This document shows positions 4,629 through 16,052 of a stretch of 64,000 bases of DNA, one piece after another. The stretch lies in assembly GCA_016187725.1 (NCBI GenBank), contig JACPJE010000122.1, forward strand, positions 1-64,000, in the 5' to 3' direction. This DNA comes from Candidatus Latescibacterota bacterium. GTDB taxonomy: Bacteria > Latescibacterota > UBA2968 > UBA8231. The notes below the pieces were generated by a model, which had not been told where the DNA came from, searched no databases, and worked only from the letters and a program-made list of their open reading frames with translations. A program made the position numbers and the translations under genes. Every line of letters starts with the position of its first letter. Position 1 is the first letter of the stretch.

Positions 4629-6008
4629 ATGAGCTTTCCGCTGATCCTCCTCATCGACGACGACCCTTCCATCACTGCTTCCCTCTCCCTGTTGCTGAAG
4701 CAGGCGGGGTACCAGTCGGTATGCGCTGCTGCTCCTGCCCAGGCATTGGCGCTGCTGGAAAAGGAGCGCTTCGGCCTTATTCTTCAAGATATGAACTTCT
4801 CCCGGCAGACCACCGGGGAGGAGGGCATGGCGCTTTTGCAGCAACTCAAGGAGCAGTACCCGCAACTCCCTGTGATCTTGATGACCGCCTGGGGCTCCAT
4901 CGAACTGGCGGTCAGGGGAGTCAAGGCCGGCGCCGCGGATTTCATCACCAAACCCTGGACCAACGAGCAACTGGTGCAGGCGGTGAAAACCGCTCTGAGC
5001 CTGGCGGCCACCGAACACGGCCAGGCCGGGGTACCGACGCGGGAGGACCTGGACCGGCGCTGGGATTTCAGCAAGGTCATCGGGCGCGATCCGCGCTTGT
5101 TGCGCGTCCTGGAGGTGGCGGGTCGGGTCAGCGCCACGGATGCCTCGGTGCTGCTCACCGGGGAGAGCGGCACGGGCAAGGACGAGATCGCCGAGGTCCT
5201 CTTCCGCAACAGCCAGCGGCGGACCGGCCCCTTCGTCAAGGTCAACCTGGGGGGGATCTCCGCCACCCTCTTCGAGAGCGAGATGTTCGGGCACGTGAAA
5301 GGGGCCTTCACCGACGCGCATCAGAACCGCCAGGGGCGCTTTGAACTGGCCCACGGCGGGACCATCTTCCTCGACGAGATCGGCGACCTGGACCCGGGTT
5401 GCCAGGTCAAGCTGCTGCGGGTGCTGCAAGATCGCACCTTCGAGGTGCTGGGGTCGAGCCGGACCCGGGCCGTGGATGTGCGGGTGATCTCGGCCACCAA
5501 CCGCAACCTGGCCGAATTGGTGGAGAAGGGGGAGTTCCGCGAGGACCTGCTCTACCGCCTGAACCTGATCGCCCTGCACCTGCCGCCCCTGCGGGAGCGG
5601 CGGGAGGATGTGCCGCTTCTGGCGCGCCACTTCGTCCGCCAGTTGGGACAGGTGTACCGCCGCGGCGAGCTGGAAATAGACGAGGGGGCACTCCACTGGC
5701 TGCAGGGATTGGACTGGCCGGGGAATATCCGCCAGTTGCGCCAGGTCATCGAACGATCGGTGTTGATGAGCAGCGCCGGGCCCCTGCAGCGAGCCGACCT
5801 CGAACTGGCCATGGAGATGCAGCCCGAGGAAAGAGCCAGAGGGCAACTCCCCTCGCCCGGAAGCATGACCCTGGACCAGATGGAAGAGCGGATGATCCGC
5901 CAGTGTCTGACCCACTATGAGGGCAACCTCAGCCGGGTAGCTGAAGCGTTGGGCCTGAGCCGGGCCGCGCTCTACCGCCGCCTGGAGAAATACGGGATTG
6001 AGCCGTGA
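4629..6008 (+). CDS. NtrC-family sigma-54-dependent response regulator
   Basis: Activates RNA polymerase-sigma-54 after phosphorylation. The receiver (1-125) is complete: acidic residues D10-D12, phosphoacceptor D54, T86 and K108. The AAA+ domain (about 145-385) has Walker A GESGTGKD (178-185), Walker B IFLDEIGD and an arginine-rich LRERREDVP segment. The sigma-54 loop reads GAFTDA (225-230) rather than GAFTGA, a variant also seen in other NtrC-like proteins. A C-terminal Fis-type helix-turn-helix (about 420-459) gives DNA binding. The gene overlaps the histidine kinase at 6005, so the two form a two-component system. Likely targets are the nearby permeases and/or the sigma-54 promoter at 7637-7652; that is inference. 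Confidence 0.93.
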   Translation: MSFPLILLIDDDPSITASLSLLLKQAGYQSVCAAAPAQALALLEKERFGLILQDMNFSRQTTGEEGMALLQQLKEQYPQLPVILMTAWGSIELAVRGVKAGAADFITKPWTNEQLVQAVKTALSLAATEHGQAGVPTREDLDRRWDFSKVIGRDPRLLRVLEVAGRVSATDASVLLTGESGTGKDEIAEVLFRNSQRRTGPFVKVNLGGISATLFESEMFGHVKGAFTDAHQNRQGRFELAHGGTIFLDEIGDLDPGCQVKLLRVLQDRTFEVLGSSRTRAVDVRVISATNRNLAELVEKGEFREDLLYRLNLIALHLPPLRERREDVPLLARHFVRQLGQVYRRGELEIDEGALHWLQGLDWPGNIRQLRQVIERSVLMSSAGPLQRADLELAMEMQPEERARGQLPSPGSMTLDQMEERMIRQCLTHYEGNLSRVAEALGLSRAALYRRLEKYGIEP

Positions 6009-7315
6009 GCCTGCGGGCGAAGTTTGTCCTTTACTTGACGCTGGTCCACTTTGTCTTTGCGGCAGCGGCGATCTGGCTGCTGCGCCAGGAGTGGGTCTGG
6101 CTGCTGGTGGTCGAGGTGTTCTTCGCCCTCTCCCTCATCGCGGGTATCTGGTTGATCCGGCATCTCTTCATCCCCCTGGACCTGATCCGCACCGGCGCCG
6201 AACTGATCGAGGAGGAGGACTTTGCCAGCAAGTTCGTCGAGGTGGGGCAGCCGGAGATGGACCAGCTCATCCGGGTGTTCAACCGCATGAACGAGCGACT
6301 GCGCGAGGAGCGGCTCCAACTGCAGGAACAGCACTACCTCCTGGAGAAGATCCTGGCGGCGTCTCCTTCCGGAATCATCACCTTCGACTACGACGGGAGG
6401 ATCTCCCTGGTCAACCCCAGCGCCGAACGTCTGCTGCAGGCGCTGGCCGCTGAGTTGATCGGAAAGAAGCCGGAGGGAAGTGCCCCGGAACTGCTTCACG
6501 TCCTGGCCGGCCTGGAGGTGGGAGGGGCGAAGGTGGTGCGTCTGCAGGGGCAGCGGCGGGTGCGCTGCCAGAAGTCTCAGTTCGTGGATCGGGGCTTCCC
6601 CCGTTCCTTCGTCCTCATCGAGGAACTGACCGAGGAGTTGCGCCATTCGGAGAAGCGGGGCTACGAGCAGGTGATCCGCATGATGGCGCACGAGGTCAAC
6701 AACTCCACCGGCGCGGTGAGTTCGCTGATCCGTTCCTGCCTCAACTACCGCGACCAGGTCCGCGAGGCGGACCGGGAGGATTTCGCCACCGCCCTCCAGG
6801 TGGCGGCCCAGCGCAGCGAGCGCCTGAGCAGTTTCATGCGCAACTTCTCCGAGGTGGTCAAGCTCCCTTTGCCCCGCTTGCAGTTGGTGAATCTGGTGGA
6901 GTTGCTCAGGGAGATCGAAAGGCTGCTACAGGTCGAAAGCCAGCAGCGGCATATTATCTGGGAATGGGAGGTGGAAGACGAACTGCCTCCCTTGCATATG
7001 GATCGGGAGCAGATGGAACAGGTCTTCGTCAACGTCCTCAGGAACGCGATGGAGGCCATCGGGACAGAAGGGCGCATCGAGGTGAGGGTGGGCAGGGTGG
7101 GTGGTCGTTCCCGGGTGGTGATCGCCGACAGCGGCTGCGGCATCGCCCCCGAGATCAGGGAGCAGTTGTTCACCCCCTTCTTCAGCACCAAGGAGCAGGG
7201 ACAGGGCATCGGCCTGACCCTGGTGCAGGAGATCCTGGATCGGCACGGCTTCGAGTTTTCCCTGGAGAGCCGGTCAGGGGGCCCCACGGACTTTGCGGTC
7301 TATTTCAAGTCTTGA
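6005..7315 (+). CDS. Sensor histidine kinase (HAMP-PAS-HisKA-HATPase)
   Basis: 436 residues; the GTG start overlaps the regulator stop. Two adjacent membrane helices (about 7-27 and 31-52) leave almost no periplasmic loop, so sensing is probably in the membrane or cytoplasm. HAMP-like linker (52-102), PAS domain (about 112-205), H-box MAHEVNNS with phosphorylated H229, then the ATPase domain with N-box NVLRNAMEAI, G1 DSGCGI, F-box FTPFFSTK and G2 GQGIGL. It should phosphorylate the NtrC-type regulator just upstream. Its 3' end overlaps the convergent small gene at 7305-7580 by 11 bases. Confidence 0.93.
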   Translation: MSLRAKFVLYLTLVHFVFAAAAIWLLRQEWVWLLVVEVFFALSLIAGIWLIRHLFIPLDLIRTGAELIEEEDFASKFVEVGQPEMDQLIRVFNRMNERLREERLQLQEQHYLLEKILAASPSGIITFDYDGRISLVNPSAERLLQALAAELIGKKPEGSAPELLHVLAGLEVGGAKVVRLQGQRRVRCQKSQFVDRGFPRSFVLIEELTEELRHSEKRGYEQVIRMMAHEVNNSTGAVSSLIRSCLNYRDQVREADREDFATALQVAAQRSERLSSFMRNFSEVVKLPLPRLQLVNLVELLREIERLLQVESQQRHIIWEWEVEDELPPLHMDREQMEQVFVNVLRNAMEAIGTEGRIEVRVGRVGGRSRVVIADSGCGIAPEIREQLFTPFFSTKEQGQGIGLTLVQEILDRHGFEFSLESRSGGPTDFAVYFKS

Positions 7316-7580
7316 GGACAGCGATGATGACCCCAGCCAGAGCGATCATGGTCGTCAGCAACCAGCGGAAGTGGGTGTCCTGCCGCTTGTTGCCGTCGTC
7401 GATGCGGACGTGGACGCCGCGGATCTCTGCGCGCAGGTCCTGGATTTCTGCGCGGACCTCAGTGCGCAGATTCTGAAAATCAGTGCGCAAATTCTGGAAG
7501 TCTTCGCGCAGGTAGGAAATGCCCCAGTGGAATTCGGCCGGGGGCTGGGAAGAGGATGGGGATTGCGGAGTTTCTGGCAT
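7305..7580 (-). CDS. Small coiled-coil protein with C-terminal membrane anchor
   Basis: 91 residues from the ATG at 7580 with GTGAGAAAA upstream. I chose this start because the longer open frame runs through a sigma-54 promoter and would begin upstream of the transcript. A proline/serine-rich N-terminus (1-17) leads to a heptad-rich stretch (22-62) with near-repeats LREDFQN, LRTDFQN, LRTEVRA and LRAEIRG. A single hydrophobic segment (about 72-89) closes the protein. This layout recalls DUF1640-like or tail-anchored coiled-coil proteins, but I cannot name a family with certainty. It follows sbcC on the same strand, yet has its own promoter 57 bases upstream. Function unknown. Confidence 0.75.
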   Translation of the reverse strand: MPETPQSPSSSQPPAEFHWGISYLREDFQNLRTDFQNLRTEVRAEIQDLRAEIRGVHVRIDDGNKRQDTHFRWLLTTMIALAGVIIAVLKT

Positions 7581-7636
7581 GACGGATTTTCTCACTGAGT
7601 TGAAGATACCCAACGACAGCCCACAGCACAACGAGA

Positions 7637-7652
7637 CGCAAATCCCATGCCA
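7637..7652 (-). promoter_or_regulatory. Sigma-54 (-24/-12) promoter
   Basis: Minus-strand sequence TGGCATGGGATTTGCG fits the sigma-54 consensus TGGCAYG-N4-TTGC with the invariant GG and GC exactly 10 bases apart (GG at 7651-7650, GC at 7639-7638). Transcription would start near 7626, giving a leader of about 46 bases before the small gene at 7580. The core is almost the same as the promoter at 15480-15495. Farther upstream, AGTGT-N12-ACACT is a possible but weak activator site. Confidence 0.75.
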
Positions 7653-12872: not shown

Positions 12873-15281
12873 ATGGACGACGTCAATACCGTAGAAATGA
12901 GATTGTGGCGCGACGGGCTCGCCTTGATTTCCAAGCCCCAGGCGCTGCAGCAGGGATTGAGAGAGATGGCCGAGATGCTGGTGGGGCATTTTGCCGTGGA
13001 CTTCTGCGCCATCTACCTGCTCGACCGGCGGACGGACGAATTGGTGCTGCACGGGCGGGGAGGGCAGGAGAGCTATCTGGCGATGACCAGGCTGCGCGTC
13101 GGCCAGGGCATCACCGGCATGGCCGCCTACCAGGGGAAGCTCCTGCAGGTCGCCCACATGCAGCGCGATCCGCGCTCGGTGCACCGTCAGGGAGGCGAAC
13201 GCTACTACCAGAGCATCGTCGCCCTGCCTCTGGTCGAAGGCGAAGCGCTGCTGGGGGCGCTCAATCTGCAAAGCGGCGCGGTGCGCCACTTTTCGCAGGA
13301 CGAGATCGAGGTCCTCAACCAGGTGGTGCGGCCGATCATCATCGGGATGATCCGAACCGCCCAGGCCTTTGAAGACATGGGACAGCGGACTAGCGAGGTC
13401 CAGGCCCTCAACGAACTGGGCCAGGCGATGAATTCCGGTCTGGGGCTGGATGAGTCCATCGAACTGATCGCCACCAAGGCGGCCGAGGCCCTCAGCGCCA
13501 AAGGTTCCATCATCCGCCTGATGGTGGAGGACGGGTCCCTGGCGCAGGCGACGGTGGTGGCGGTGTCCGAGGAGCAGTTCGACGCGCGCGACGAAAAGCG
13601 GATCGCCGAGTACGTGGCCGCCACCGGCGAGCCCATCGTGATCGACGATCTGCGCGCCATCAAATACCCCGGGACGCTGGGGGCGTCGCTGGTGTGCATT
13701 CCCCTGGTGCTCGAAGAGCGGGTGGTCGGCACCCTGACCCTGTTCGACAAGATCACCCCATTGGGGGCCGAGCGGCGGTTGTTCAGCATGGACGACCTCA
13801 ACATGCTTTTCGCCCTTTCCAGCCAGCTGGCGGCGGAGATCGAGGATATACGTCTCACTGGGCGCCTCCAGGAGCTGGTGCGCACCGAAAAGCAGCAGGC
13901 CGAGGAACTGCGGCAACTCTACAACCGCTCGCGGGCCTTGCTGGAGTCGATCTCGGATGGCCTGCTGGCGGTGGACCGGGAAGGGGTGGTGGTCGAGGCC
14001 AACACCGTGGCCCACCGGATATTCGGCCAGCAGCAAAGGGCGCTGAAAAACCGCCCCATCGACGAACTGGCCGAGGACAAACCGCCCCTGCGGGAGTGGC
14101 TGAGGAGAGGAGAGCAATTCAGCCAGCGGGTCATCACGCTGAATACGGCTGCGGGGAGGGTGGCGGCCATGGCCAACCTGCAGCCGATCCTCGATGCCGG
14201 CTCGCAGGCCAGCGGGGCGGTGCTGACCTTCAGGGAGATGGGCGAGGTGGGGCGCCTGGTGAACCGGGTCATCGGGGTGCAGCGCACCTTTGCCTTCGAG
14301 GATATCATCGGCAGCAGTCCCATCATCGAGAAGACCAAGGAACTGGCCAGGATCGCCGCCGGCACCAGTTCCAATATCCTGATCCAGGGGGAGACCGGCA
14401 CGGGGAAGGAGGTGTTCGCCCAGGCCATTCACAATGCCAGCGCCTATAGCGAGGGGCCTTTTCTGGCAGTCAACTGCGCGGCCTTGCCCCGGGATCTGAT
14501 AGAGAGCGAGTTGTTCGGTTATGTGGAAGGCGCCTTTACCGGGGCCAGCAAAAAGGGCCGGCTGGGTAAATTCGAACTGGCCAGCGGTGGCACCCTCTTT
14601 TTGGACGAAATAGGCGAGATCCCCCCCGAAGTCCAGGTAAAATTGCTGCGAGTCCTTCAGGAGAAGGCCATCGTCAGGGTGGGTGGGGATCGCACCATCC
14701 CGGTGAATTGCCGCATGATCACCGCCACCAACCGGGATCTGCACCGCGCCGTGGGTGAGCAGAAGTTCCGCCAGGACCTGCTCTACCGGCTGGATGTGAT
14801 CACTATCGAAGTGCCTCCGCTGCGCGAGCGGCGAGGGGATATCCCTCTTTTTGCCGCGCGCTTCATCGAGAATTTCGCCCGGCGCAACAGTAAGGCAGTA
14901 GAGGGGATGGAACAAGAGGTATTGGAAAAACTGATCGCCTATACCTGGCCCGGCAATGTCCGCCAGCTCGAAAATGCCATAGAGCATGCCGTTGCCCTGG
15001 CTAAGGAGCACCTAGTCCAGTGGGAGGATTTGCCGGCGCACCTCCAGAGCGTGGTCAGCGGGGAGGCGATCGGCGCAGAGCCTCAAGATACCTTTACCAA
15101 AGCCCGTCTCAATTGCGAGGCAGCCACCAAAAGCATGTATATAGAAGCCCTCCGGGTGGAGCAGGGGGATATAGCCAGGGCTGCTCATCTGCTGGGGATC
15201 AGCAGAGCCACCTTTTACCGGCGTCTGAGGAGGTATGGATTAAAAAGGAATATCTCAAAAACGATACTAATGGATCAATAA
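12873..15281 (+). CDS. Sigma-54 activator with two GAF domains and a PAS domain
   Basis: 802-residue enhancer-binding protein without a receiver, so it is controlled by its own sensor domains. GAF 1 (about 25-165), GAF 2 (about 185-330), a short coiled coil (about 335-350), PAS (about 352-455), then an AAA+ domain (about 475-715) with Walker A GETGTGKE (506-513), GAFTGA (553-558) and Walker B LFLDEIGE. A Fis-type helix-turn-helix follows (about 750-790), with a short basic tail. The architecture is like NifA/FhlA-type sensors of small molecules or redox state, but the ligand is unknown. The sigma-54 promoter at 15480 lies directly downstream and is the obvious candidate target. Confidence 0.93.
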   Translation: MDDVNTVEMRLWRDGLALISKPQALQQGLREMAEMLVGHFAVDFCAIYLLDRRTDELVLHGRGGQESYLAMTRLRVGQGITGMAAYQGKLLQVAHMQRDPRSVHRQGGERYYQSIVALPLVEGEALLGALNLQSGAVRHFSQDEIEVLNQVVRPIIIGMIRTAQAFEDMGQRTSEVQALNELGQAMNSGLGLDESIELIATKAAEALSAKGSIIRLMVEDGSLAQATVVAVSEEQFDARDEKRIAEYVAATGEPIVIDDLRAIKYPGTLGASLVCIPLVLEERVVGTLTLFDKITPLGAERRLFSMDDLNMLFALSSQLAAEIEDIRLTGRLQELVRTEKQQAEELRQLYNRSRALLESISDGLLAVDREGVVVEANTVAHRIFGQQQRALKNRPIDELAEDKPPLREWLRRGEQFSQRVITLNTAAGRVAAMANLQPILDAGSQASGAVLTFREMGEVGRLVNRVIGVQRTFAFEDIIGSSPIIEKTKELARIAAGTSSNILIQGETGTGKEVFAQAIHNASAYSEGPFLAVNCAALPRDLIESELFGYVEGAFTGASKKGRLGKFELASGGTLFLDEIGEIPPEVQVKLLRVLQEKAIVRVGGDRTIPVNCRMITATNRDLHRAVGEQKFRQDLLYRLDVITIEVPPLRERRGDIPLFAARFIENFARRNSKAVEGMEQEVLEKLIAYTWPGNVRQLENAIEHAVALAKEHLVQWEDLPAHLQSVVSGEAIGAEPQDTFTKARLNCEAATKSMYIEALRVEQGDIARAAHLLGISRATFYRRLRRYGLKRNISKTILMDQ

Positions 15282-15294
15282 TGACCATCTCACC

Positions 15295-15397
15295 TTGACA
15301 ACAATAACCGGTTGTAATTGAAAAAGATTTTTGGATTCCCGAGAGACGGGAGGGACATGGAAGGCCGTTGTTGTCGCAATGTTGACACAGTTGTCAA
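15295..15397 (+). promoter_or_regulatory. Candidate upstream activator sites (TTGACA/TGTCAA repeats)
   Basis: In the AT-rich gap after the activator gene, TTGACA-CAGT-TGTCAA (15382-15397) is a symmetric 16-base site centred about 95 bases from the -12/-24 promoter. A looser site, ACAAC-N8-GTTGT, lies at 15298-15315, and TTGTTGTC falls between them. Spacing and symmetry fit binding by a Fis-type helix-turn-helix dimer upstream of a sigma-54 promoter. Assignment to the neighbouring activator is inference. Confidence 0.45.
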
Positions 15398-15479
15398 GCG
15401 ATCAAACCGCATATAAATGACAAGGCATATCATTTTTAAATAATAGTTTAAGTACAAAATCAAGATTTTGCTGATCTTC

Positions 15480-15495
15480 TGGCATGTTATTTGCT
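15480..15495 (+). promoter_or_regulatory. Sigma-54 (-24/-12) promoter
   Basis: TGGCATGTTATTTGCT: GG at 15481-15482 and GC at 15493-15494, exactly 10 bases apart, with the full TGGCAYG and TTGCW elements. The expected start of transcription is near 15505, leaving a leader of about 43 bases before the ATG at 15548. It shares TGGCATG-NN-ATTTGC with the minus-strand promoter at 7637-7652. Confidence 0.82.
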
Positions 15496-15547
15496 ATGTT
15501 TCAAGATGCGTAACCGAGATATAAGACTGAGGTATAAGAGGTATAAG

Positions 15548-15982
15548 ATGATGATAGGATCAGATGGCAGTAAGGGCAGTATAGTCATTGGCAAGTGGGG
15601 CTTGGTCTGCAAGGCCGACGGGTGTGGATGCGAGGCTCGCACCGCGGGTTATTGTCCGCGCCATTACCAGCAGATCCGGCGCCATGGCCGGCTGACTCCT
15701 GAGCGCGAATATCACCGCAGGGGCAATCGCTGCCTGGTCGAACACTGCGAAGAGCCTCAGATCGCCAAGGGATATTGTTTTCGCCACTACCAGCAGGTCC
15801 GCAGATACGGGCGGCTGACTCCTGAGCGCGAGCGTATCTACGGTCGCCTGGGTTGTCGGGTGCCAGGCTGTGAGGAGCACCACTCTTCCCGGGGCTATTG
15901 CAAGCGCCACTACATGAGCGAGTATTACCTGCCCAGGCTCACTCGTTCCGCTACTCCTTTCCGGGCCAGAGCCCAGGCTTGA
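15548..15982 (+). CDS. Protein of three tandem C-x4-C-x9-C-x2-H zinc-ribbon-like units
   Basis: 144 residues. The ATG at 15548 (or 15551) follows AGAGG-TATAAG; an upstream in-frame ATG at 15506 would be leaderless. Three units repeat every 41 residues: C21/C26/C36/H39, C62/C67/C77/H80 and C103/C108/C118/H121, each with GYC-x2-HY and, in the first two, QQ-RR-GRLTPERE. The unit resembles the C….C…GxCxxHYxRxxxxG motif found in many phage and actinobacterial small proteins and next to HNH domains, which probably binds one zinc. The basic spacer suggests nucleic-acid contact. Monocistronic: sigma-54 promoter in front, terminator behind. Function unknown. Confidence 0.8.
   Translation: MMIGSDGSKGSIVIGKWGLVCKADGCGCEARTAGYCPRHYQQIRRHGRLTPEREYHRRGNRCLVEHCEEPQIAKGYCFRHYQQVRRYGRLTPERERIYGRLGCRVPGCEEHHSSRGYCKRHYMSEYYLPRLTRSATPFRARAQA
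15608..15913 (+). repeat. Three tandem 123-bp coding repeats
   Basis: The zinc-ribbon units start at 15608, 15731 and 15854. Units one and two still share DNA: the 20-base run CGGCTGACTCCTGAGCGCGA occurs at 15689 and again at 15812, exactly 123 bases apart. The third unit keeps only the metal ligands and the GYC-x2-HY core. This points to a fairly recent duplication of the first two. Confidence 0.8.
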
Positions 15983-16014
15983 TGGGACTGCTGGACTGAA
16001 GGGTACTGCGGTTG

Positions 16015-16052
16015 AAGGCGGCGAACCACGCAGATGGTTCGCCGCCTTTATA
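16015..16052 (+). terminator. Intrinsic terminator after the zinc-ribbon gene
   Basis: Perfect 14-base-pair inverted repeat (AAGGCGGCGAACCA at 16015-16028, TGGTTCGCCGCCTT at 16035-16048) with a 6-base loop and a T/A-rich tail (TTTATATTT overall). It isolates the sigma-54 transcript from the tRNA and ribosomal block. Confidence 0.85.

Follow-up and report, generated by a model that had tools for sequence, protein, structure and literature searches.

A candidate sigma-54 regulon joining a triple zinc-unit protein and an unlinked operon of tiny membrane peptides in Candidatus Latescibacterota

The stretch of DNA analysed here (the window, 64,000 nucleotides from Candidatus Latescibacterota) is contig C127 of an 89%-complete MAG of 5.56 Mb in 292 contigs. 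Its local gene order is sbcD (minus strand), greA, a sigma-54 activator, a gene for a small protein with zinc units, tRNA-Gly, tRNA-Thr, rpmG, tRNA-Trp, secE, nusG and rplK, within which the run greA-activator-zinc gene-tRNA-Gly is conserved among relatives. A search of the window with Rfam returned tRNAs only. The original prediction for this locus was a one-activator, one-target module controlling the zinc protein. The positions of the features are given in Table 1.

Table 1. Features of the activator and zinc-protein locus, and of the unlinked peptide operon
Feature	Position	Strand	Basis
One-component sigma-54 activator (bEBP), GAF-GAF-PAS-AAA+(GAFTGA)-Fis-type HTH, 802 aa	12873..15281	+	Pfam, motifs, orthologues
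Distal dyad 1, ATCTCAAAAACGATAC, within activator 3' end	15252-15267	.	PWM from tiny-peptide promoters; 20-bp tandem in 11/11
Distal dyad 2, GGATCAATAATGACCA, overlapping activator stop codon	15272-15287	.	Same PWM; 20-bp tandem in 11/11
Proximal dyad, GTCGCAATGTTGACAC	15373-15388	.	Aligned sites in L009, L010, L012 at -107 to -109
Perfect palindrome of the original prediction, TTGACACAGTTGTCAA	15382-15397	.	Present; not conserved in relatives
Sigma-54 promoter -24/-12, TGGCATGTTATTTGCT	15480-15495	+	Exact site; box in 11/11 activator-adjacent orthologous promoters
Ribosome-binding site AGAGG, six bases before ATG 15548	15537..15541	+	Sequence
Protein of 144 aa with three zinc units, an HNH-endonuclease-type array lacking the HNH domain	15548..15982	+	Ligands, dN/dS, PHROG 5351
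Zinc unit 1, C21-x4-C26-x9-C36-x2-H39	15608..15664	+	Invariant ligands
Zinc unit 2, C62..H80	15731..15787	+	Invariant ligands
Zinc unit 3, C103..H121	15854..15910	+	Invariant ligands
Intrinsic terminator between zinc gene and tRNA-Gly	16013-16050	+	16-pair stem plus T tract; strong
Peptide operon near lnt, two or three tiny membrane proteins with a single span each	L047 1564-1970 (G000:C47)		Also L090, L099, L100, L109, L111, L113, L160

The activator had been described as receiver-less with two GAF domains and a PAS domain, and Pfam searches bore this out: they identified GAF_2 in two stretches, PAS at residues 354-455, Sigma54_activat at 478-646 (E=2e-67) and a C-terminal Fis-type HTH_8 (E=4e-9), and found no receiver domain. 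The GAFTGA motif (residue 553) and the Walker A motif GETGTGKE (506) are intact, so that the AAA+ domain and the HTH are both those of a bEBP, and the genome also carries rpoN (G000:C244, Sigma54_DBD E=1e-57). Among the equivalogs listed, scores fell below every curated NCBIfam cut-off, as for PrdR (412 of 795 bits, the best), NifA (356/529), NorR (323/476) and PspF (234/444), and the protein is therefore not a named bEBP. Its orthologues, which are 58-90% identical, occur in 14 of 25 family genomes. As regards autoregulation, neither the dyads described below nor a -24/-12 box was present between greA and the activator at 11 loci.

The zinc gene does encode, as had been proposed, 144 residues with three C-x4-C-x9-C-x2-H units; these are spaced exactly 41 residues apart, are rich in Arg and His, and keep all 12 ligands invariant in 14 relatives. 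A dN/dS of 0.02-0.06 within the genus, where dS is near saturation, indicates purifying selection. Nothing in Pfam or NCBIfam, HNH included, rose above cut-off, a PDB sequence search gave no match, and an AlphaFold2 model built with 14 sequences reached a pLDDT of 61, with nothing significant in the PDB by Foldseek. The best family matches were HNH endonucleases, with PHROG 5351 at E=1e-21 covering the repeat part only (best stretch, residues 20-96). The listed phage and plasmid relatives are 26-44% identical, and viral contigs contributed a single weak relative. Two phage genes were translated: in the first, three such units precede an HNH domain of the C-x2-C kind, and in the second, similar units, again three, precede an HNH-type region. 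The bacterial protein has the three-unit array of these phage members (PHROG 5351 and the translated proteins) and stops after unit 3, without the HNH catalytic domain. By this comparison it is best described as a recognition array without a nuclease, and it probably descends from an HNH endonuclease whose DNA-recognition array was kept when the nuclease was lost. The earlier suggestion that the protein perhaps binds nucleic acid is plausible, given the match of its three units to the N-terminal array of phage HNH endonucleases, and, because of these homologues and the basic composition, nucleic-acid binding is most likely its present activity.

The -24/-12 site TGGCATGTTATTTGCT begins 68 bp 5' of the zinc-gene ATG, with transcription predicted to start near 15505, and combines GG-N10-GC and conserved flanks with upstream candidate enhancer sites, as in sigma-54-dependent promoters. 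It is the sole exact match within the window to the pattern TGGCATGNNNNTTGCW. With 2 mismatches allowed the window held 8 matches as against 9.5 by chance, which is not above chance, and the case for the promoter is thus made by its exact match, position and conservation and not by the relaxed-pattern count; the box is found in all 11 zinc-gene promoter regions that adjoin the activator. The whole genome contains 123 sigma-54-like sites (17 with a reversed-pattern control), so that a -24/-12 box alone is ordinary and it is the upstream sites that count. The full promoter and the isolating terminator of the original prediction were both confirmed.

The candidate enhancer is a 16-bp dyad, about GTMTCA-N4-TGAKAC, of which there are three for each zinc-gene promoter in 11 Latescibacterota genomes. 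A 6-N4-6 dyad was first suggested by comparing relatives; for the test, a PWM was trained solely on the dyads of the peptide operon described below and then applied to the 11 zinc-gene promoters. All 11 contained two dyads exactly 20 bp apart around the activator stop codon and a proximal one, located at -107 to -109 in the genus and, outside it, at about -125, -152 or -187. In each of the 11 promoters the three best dyad scores together were higher than in all 300 dinucleotide shuffles. The symmetric TTGACA-N4-TGTCAA site proposed originally is present (TTGACACAGTTGTCAA, 98 bp upstream of the promoter site and the sole match within the window), but as an enhancer element it did not hold up: it is not kept in the nearest relative, which has TTGACACATGTCTTG, whereas the proximal dyad GTCGCAATGTTGACAC, which overlaps it and starts 9 bp further upstream, aligns throughout the genus in both position and sequence. 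The palindrome is probably species-specific and not itself an enhancer site.

Fifteen zinc-gene loci were found in the genome contigs, with the gene in all five genus genomes, and records with close relatives are mostly Candidatus Latescibacterota or Handelsmanbacteria, some being labelled 'Gemmatimonadetes'. Within the phylum the gene occurs in 13 of 25 family genomes and in none of 39 outside the family. The activator is present in 14 family genomes, and as a fragment at a contig end in a fifteenth (G044). Thirteen family genomes have both genes and 10 have neither (Fisher p=2e-5, uncorrected for phylogeny); of the two genomes with the activator but no zinc gene, one (G062) has a contig that stops at the activator and the other (G044) has the fragment. 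In six of the ten genomes with neither gene (G046, G047, G051, G052, G054 and G055), two of them single-contig, greA is followed by tRNA-Gly about 150 bp later. Co-occurrence and these direct junctions together argue that the pair is either wholly present or wholly absent between neighbours that stay the same. Gene pair, promoter and dyads are conserved together in related genomes, and homologues are not a set that lacks the promoter and lies away from the activator, since the promoter precedes all 11 activator-adjacent copies.

Three extra zinc-gene copies do lie away from the activator. Two (L018 and L020) have their own -24/-12 box behind a 619-residue gene, with dyads absent, and are perhaps served by another activator. 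The third (L002, G000:C24:25727-26131) is a second copy in the same genome, 76% identical, which directly follows an unrelated gene and lies near a two-component system; no -24/-12 box was seen there by eye. On these grounds, dyads lacking at two and a box not seen at the other, the copies were set aside as further targets of the regulon.

A dyad scan of the first 30 sigma-54-like sites in the genome yielded a second target promoter at C47:12064 (locus L047), unlinked to the activator. It is followed by three tiny reading frames, MANLTQALNQHLRRRECLSEWVCLIGATVLLASLVSLVGIGMA, MRNTWNDIMIQGSLWALGVSVGLLVLSQFASWVRWTL and MRSAWFDLVTPAAIWLGTIAAGVLLFVLEF, which have ribosome-binding sites; a terminator-like stem comes next, and after it a convergent lnt-like gene (named by inspection). 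The peptides are single-span membrane proteins of 30-43 residues. The same arrangement, with two or three peptides near lnt, was found in seven other genomes (G001, G002, G003, G045, G049, G050 and G059), and G060 has a weaker candidate with one good dyad only; in five activator-bearing genomes (G004, G057, G058, G062 and G063) the operon was not located. All nine sequences of the first peptide that were compared can be aligned, and a Leu and a Trp are invariant among them. That the peptides are real genes is supported by dS values higher than those of dN, for the first and third in every comparison made and for the second in comparisons within the genus. In G002 (L101) one extra base breaks the frame of the second peptide near its start, either a real change or an assembly error. 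None of the peptides matched Pfam or NCBIfam above cut-off. They would probably act by modifying the membrane or a membrane complex.

The reciprocal analysis used a PWM trained solely on zinc-gene promoters to scan 9-17 kb around lnt. The highest-scoring promoter at this locus reached 44-55 in eight activator-bearing genomes, 16.9 in G060, 7.8 in G044 (activator fragment only), and -2.8 or less in nine activator-less genomes, a negative control that covers the lnt locus only. When 97 sigma-54-like sites of the present genome were scored by a PWM whose training set excluded the sites of the window, the two targets reached 44.9 and 40.7 and the next site 15.8; since the scoring covered 97 of 123 sites, in an 89%-complete MAG, a third target may have escaped it. 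The tandem dyads are spaced 20 bp apart in one promoter set and 21 bp in the other, and both sets have a proximal third site. Searches with strict patterns, either UAS plus promoter or tandem dyads, yielded mainly the two targets, and single extra matches in six genomes (G003, G044, G046, G051, G054 and G062) were taken as chance. A predicted regulon of two targets is well supported by these comparisons.

Other sigma-54-related genes lie in the window. A small coiled-coil-like protein (7305-7652, minus strand, promoter 7637-7652) with the signature LHWGISYLREDIQDLRQDLR belongs to a multicopy family, seen also at six other loci (L053, L063, L064, L065, L071 and L072) and repeatedly just behind sigma-54-like promoters of this genome; none of these promoters, where scored, came out as a target of the activator's regulon. 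At 4629-7315 (plus strand) a receiver-bearing sigma-54 response regulator is followed by a histidine-kinase-like gene, and the two sit behind a series of FtsX/MacB-like permease genes (all by inspection).

Other explanations of the regulatory sequences have to be considered. It is scarcely credible that an AT-rich intergenic stretch has produced the -24/-12 box and the dyads by chance: the promoter pattern at two mismatches is indeed no commoner in the window than in shuffles, but the exact match, the presence of a box in all 11 orthologous promoters, the excess of such sites over the reversed control, the dyad scores above those of shuffles, and the conservation of box and dyads across genera all speak against chance. 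The original model, in which the activator has one target and the peptide operon answers to another regulator with a similar site, deserves more weight and is still improbable. Sigma-54 activators commonly regulate locally, and the zinc gene is the only target that adjoins this one; yet the PWMs match both promoter sets reciprocally, down to the tandem spacing and the proximal third site, the peptide promoter at the lnt locus occurs only in activator-bearing genomes, and only these two promoters stand out among those scored. What remains of the original model is that activator and zinc gene form a regulatory unit, with pair, promoter and dyads conserved and present or absent as a block, while its restriction to one target fails on the second, unlinked promoter with the same dyads.

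The nature of the zinc protein also admits other readings. Its kinship with HNH endonucleases, its missing nuclease domain, and the partial, broken extra copies of its gene in some genomes might suggest that it is what is left of a phage or homing HNH endonuclease in decay, surviving by chance without a cellular role; against this stand the low dN/dS and invariant ligands, a promoter and enhancers conserved across five genera, and a presence and absence shared with the activator, and we consider it very improbable. That the zinc units bind protein instead, for example tying the membrane peptides to another complex, or that they store or sense zinc, is unlikely but less easily dismissed, as no DNA-binding fold could be assigned and the co-regulated peptides are membrane proteins. 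In phage enzymes, however, homologous arrays adjoin HNH nuclease domains and are likely to serve in DNA recognition, and the units of the present protein are rich in Arg and His, which favours the nucleic-acid-binding array as the reading of this protein.

We consider it likely that a small sigma-54 regulon, with two targets as far as seen, has its core at this locus: the activator would act through the dyads on an HNH-derived zinc protein and an unlinked peptide operon, and the whole has the look of a membrane or energy stress system. Promoter, dyads, the architecture shared by the two targets, the co-occurrence of the genes and the missing HNH domain can be read directly from the genomes; the dyads are tied to the activator through conservation and co-distribution. 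In the proposed mechanism the activator would bind the three 16-bp dyads upstream of each target, and binding of a signal by the GAF or PAS domains would free its AAA+ ring. The freed activator would then loop to sigma-54 RNA polymerase at the -24/-12 box and open the promoter, in a manner dependent on RpoN. The adjacent zinc gene and the C47 operon near lnt would in this way be switched on together. Since the peptides probably alter the membrane or a membrane complex, our preferred, if weakly supported, guess is that the module responds to membrane or energy stress. A bolder proposal is that it is a new switch for stress or defence that genomes gain and lose as one unit, by which the activator co-induces a nuclease-less, HNH-derived array acting on nucleic acid and an operon of membrane-altering peptides, array and peptides working together; this we put forward tentatively, as doubtful.

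The analysis provides a predicted regulon and an enhancer motif for a phylum for which a literature search found no paper combining sigma-54 with Latescibacter. It also uncovers an operon of tiny membrane peptides with no match above cut-off among the curated families of Pfam and NCBIfam; for the pair of targets, as for the operon itself, the family libraries used gave no counterpart. An HNH recognition array of phage type has apparently been domesticated into a regulated cellular protein.

Among known systems, the phage-shock response is a works-like comparison only: there PspF, a sigma-54 activator without GAF or PAS domains, serves separate promoters for small membrane proteins, and the present activator lies below the PspF equivalog cut-off. 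In the NorR system three enhancer sites scaffold the oligomer (PMC2941729), and a layout of three dyads is thus mechanistically familiar. Compared with NorR-norVW, the activator here has two GAF domains plus a PAS domain and fails the NorR cut-off, the dyad is GTMTCA-N4-TGAKAC, and the targets are a zinc-array protein and tiny membrane peptides and not an NO reductase. Desulfovibrio vulgaris has one-component EBPs that carry GAF or PAS domains and control a single target operon or a few (PMC4641369); the present regulon differs from these in lineage, binding sites and targets. Some phage HNH endonucleases (for example Gordonia phage Verity gp42 and Arthrobacter phage Jinkies gp7) likewise have three tandem units of the C-x4-C-x9-C-x2-H type at the N-terminus, whereas the bacterial protein ends after the third, without HNH, and is encoded on the chromosome, in a conserved locus and behind a sigma-54 promoter.
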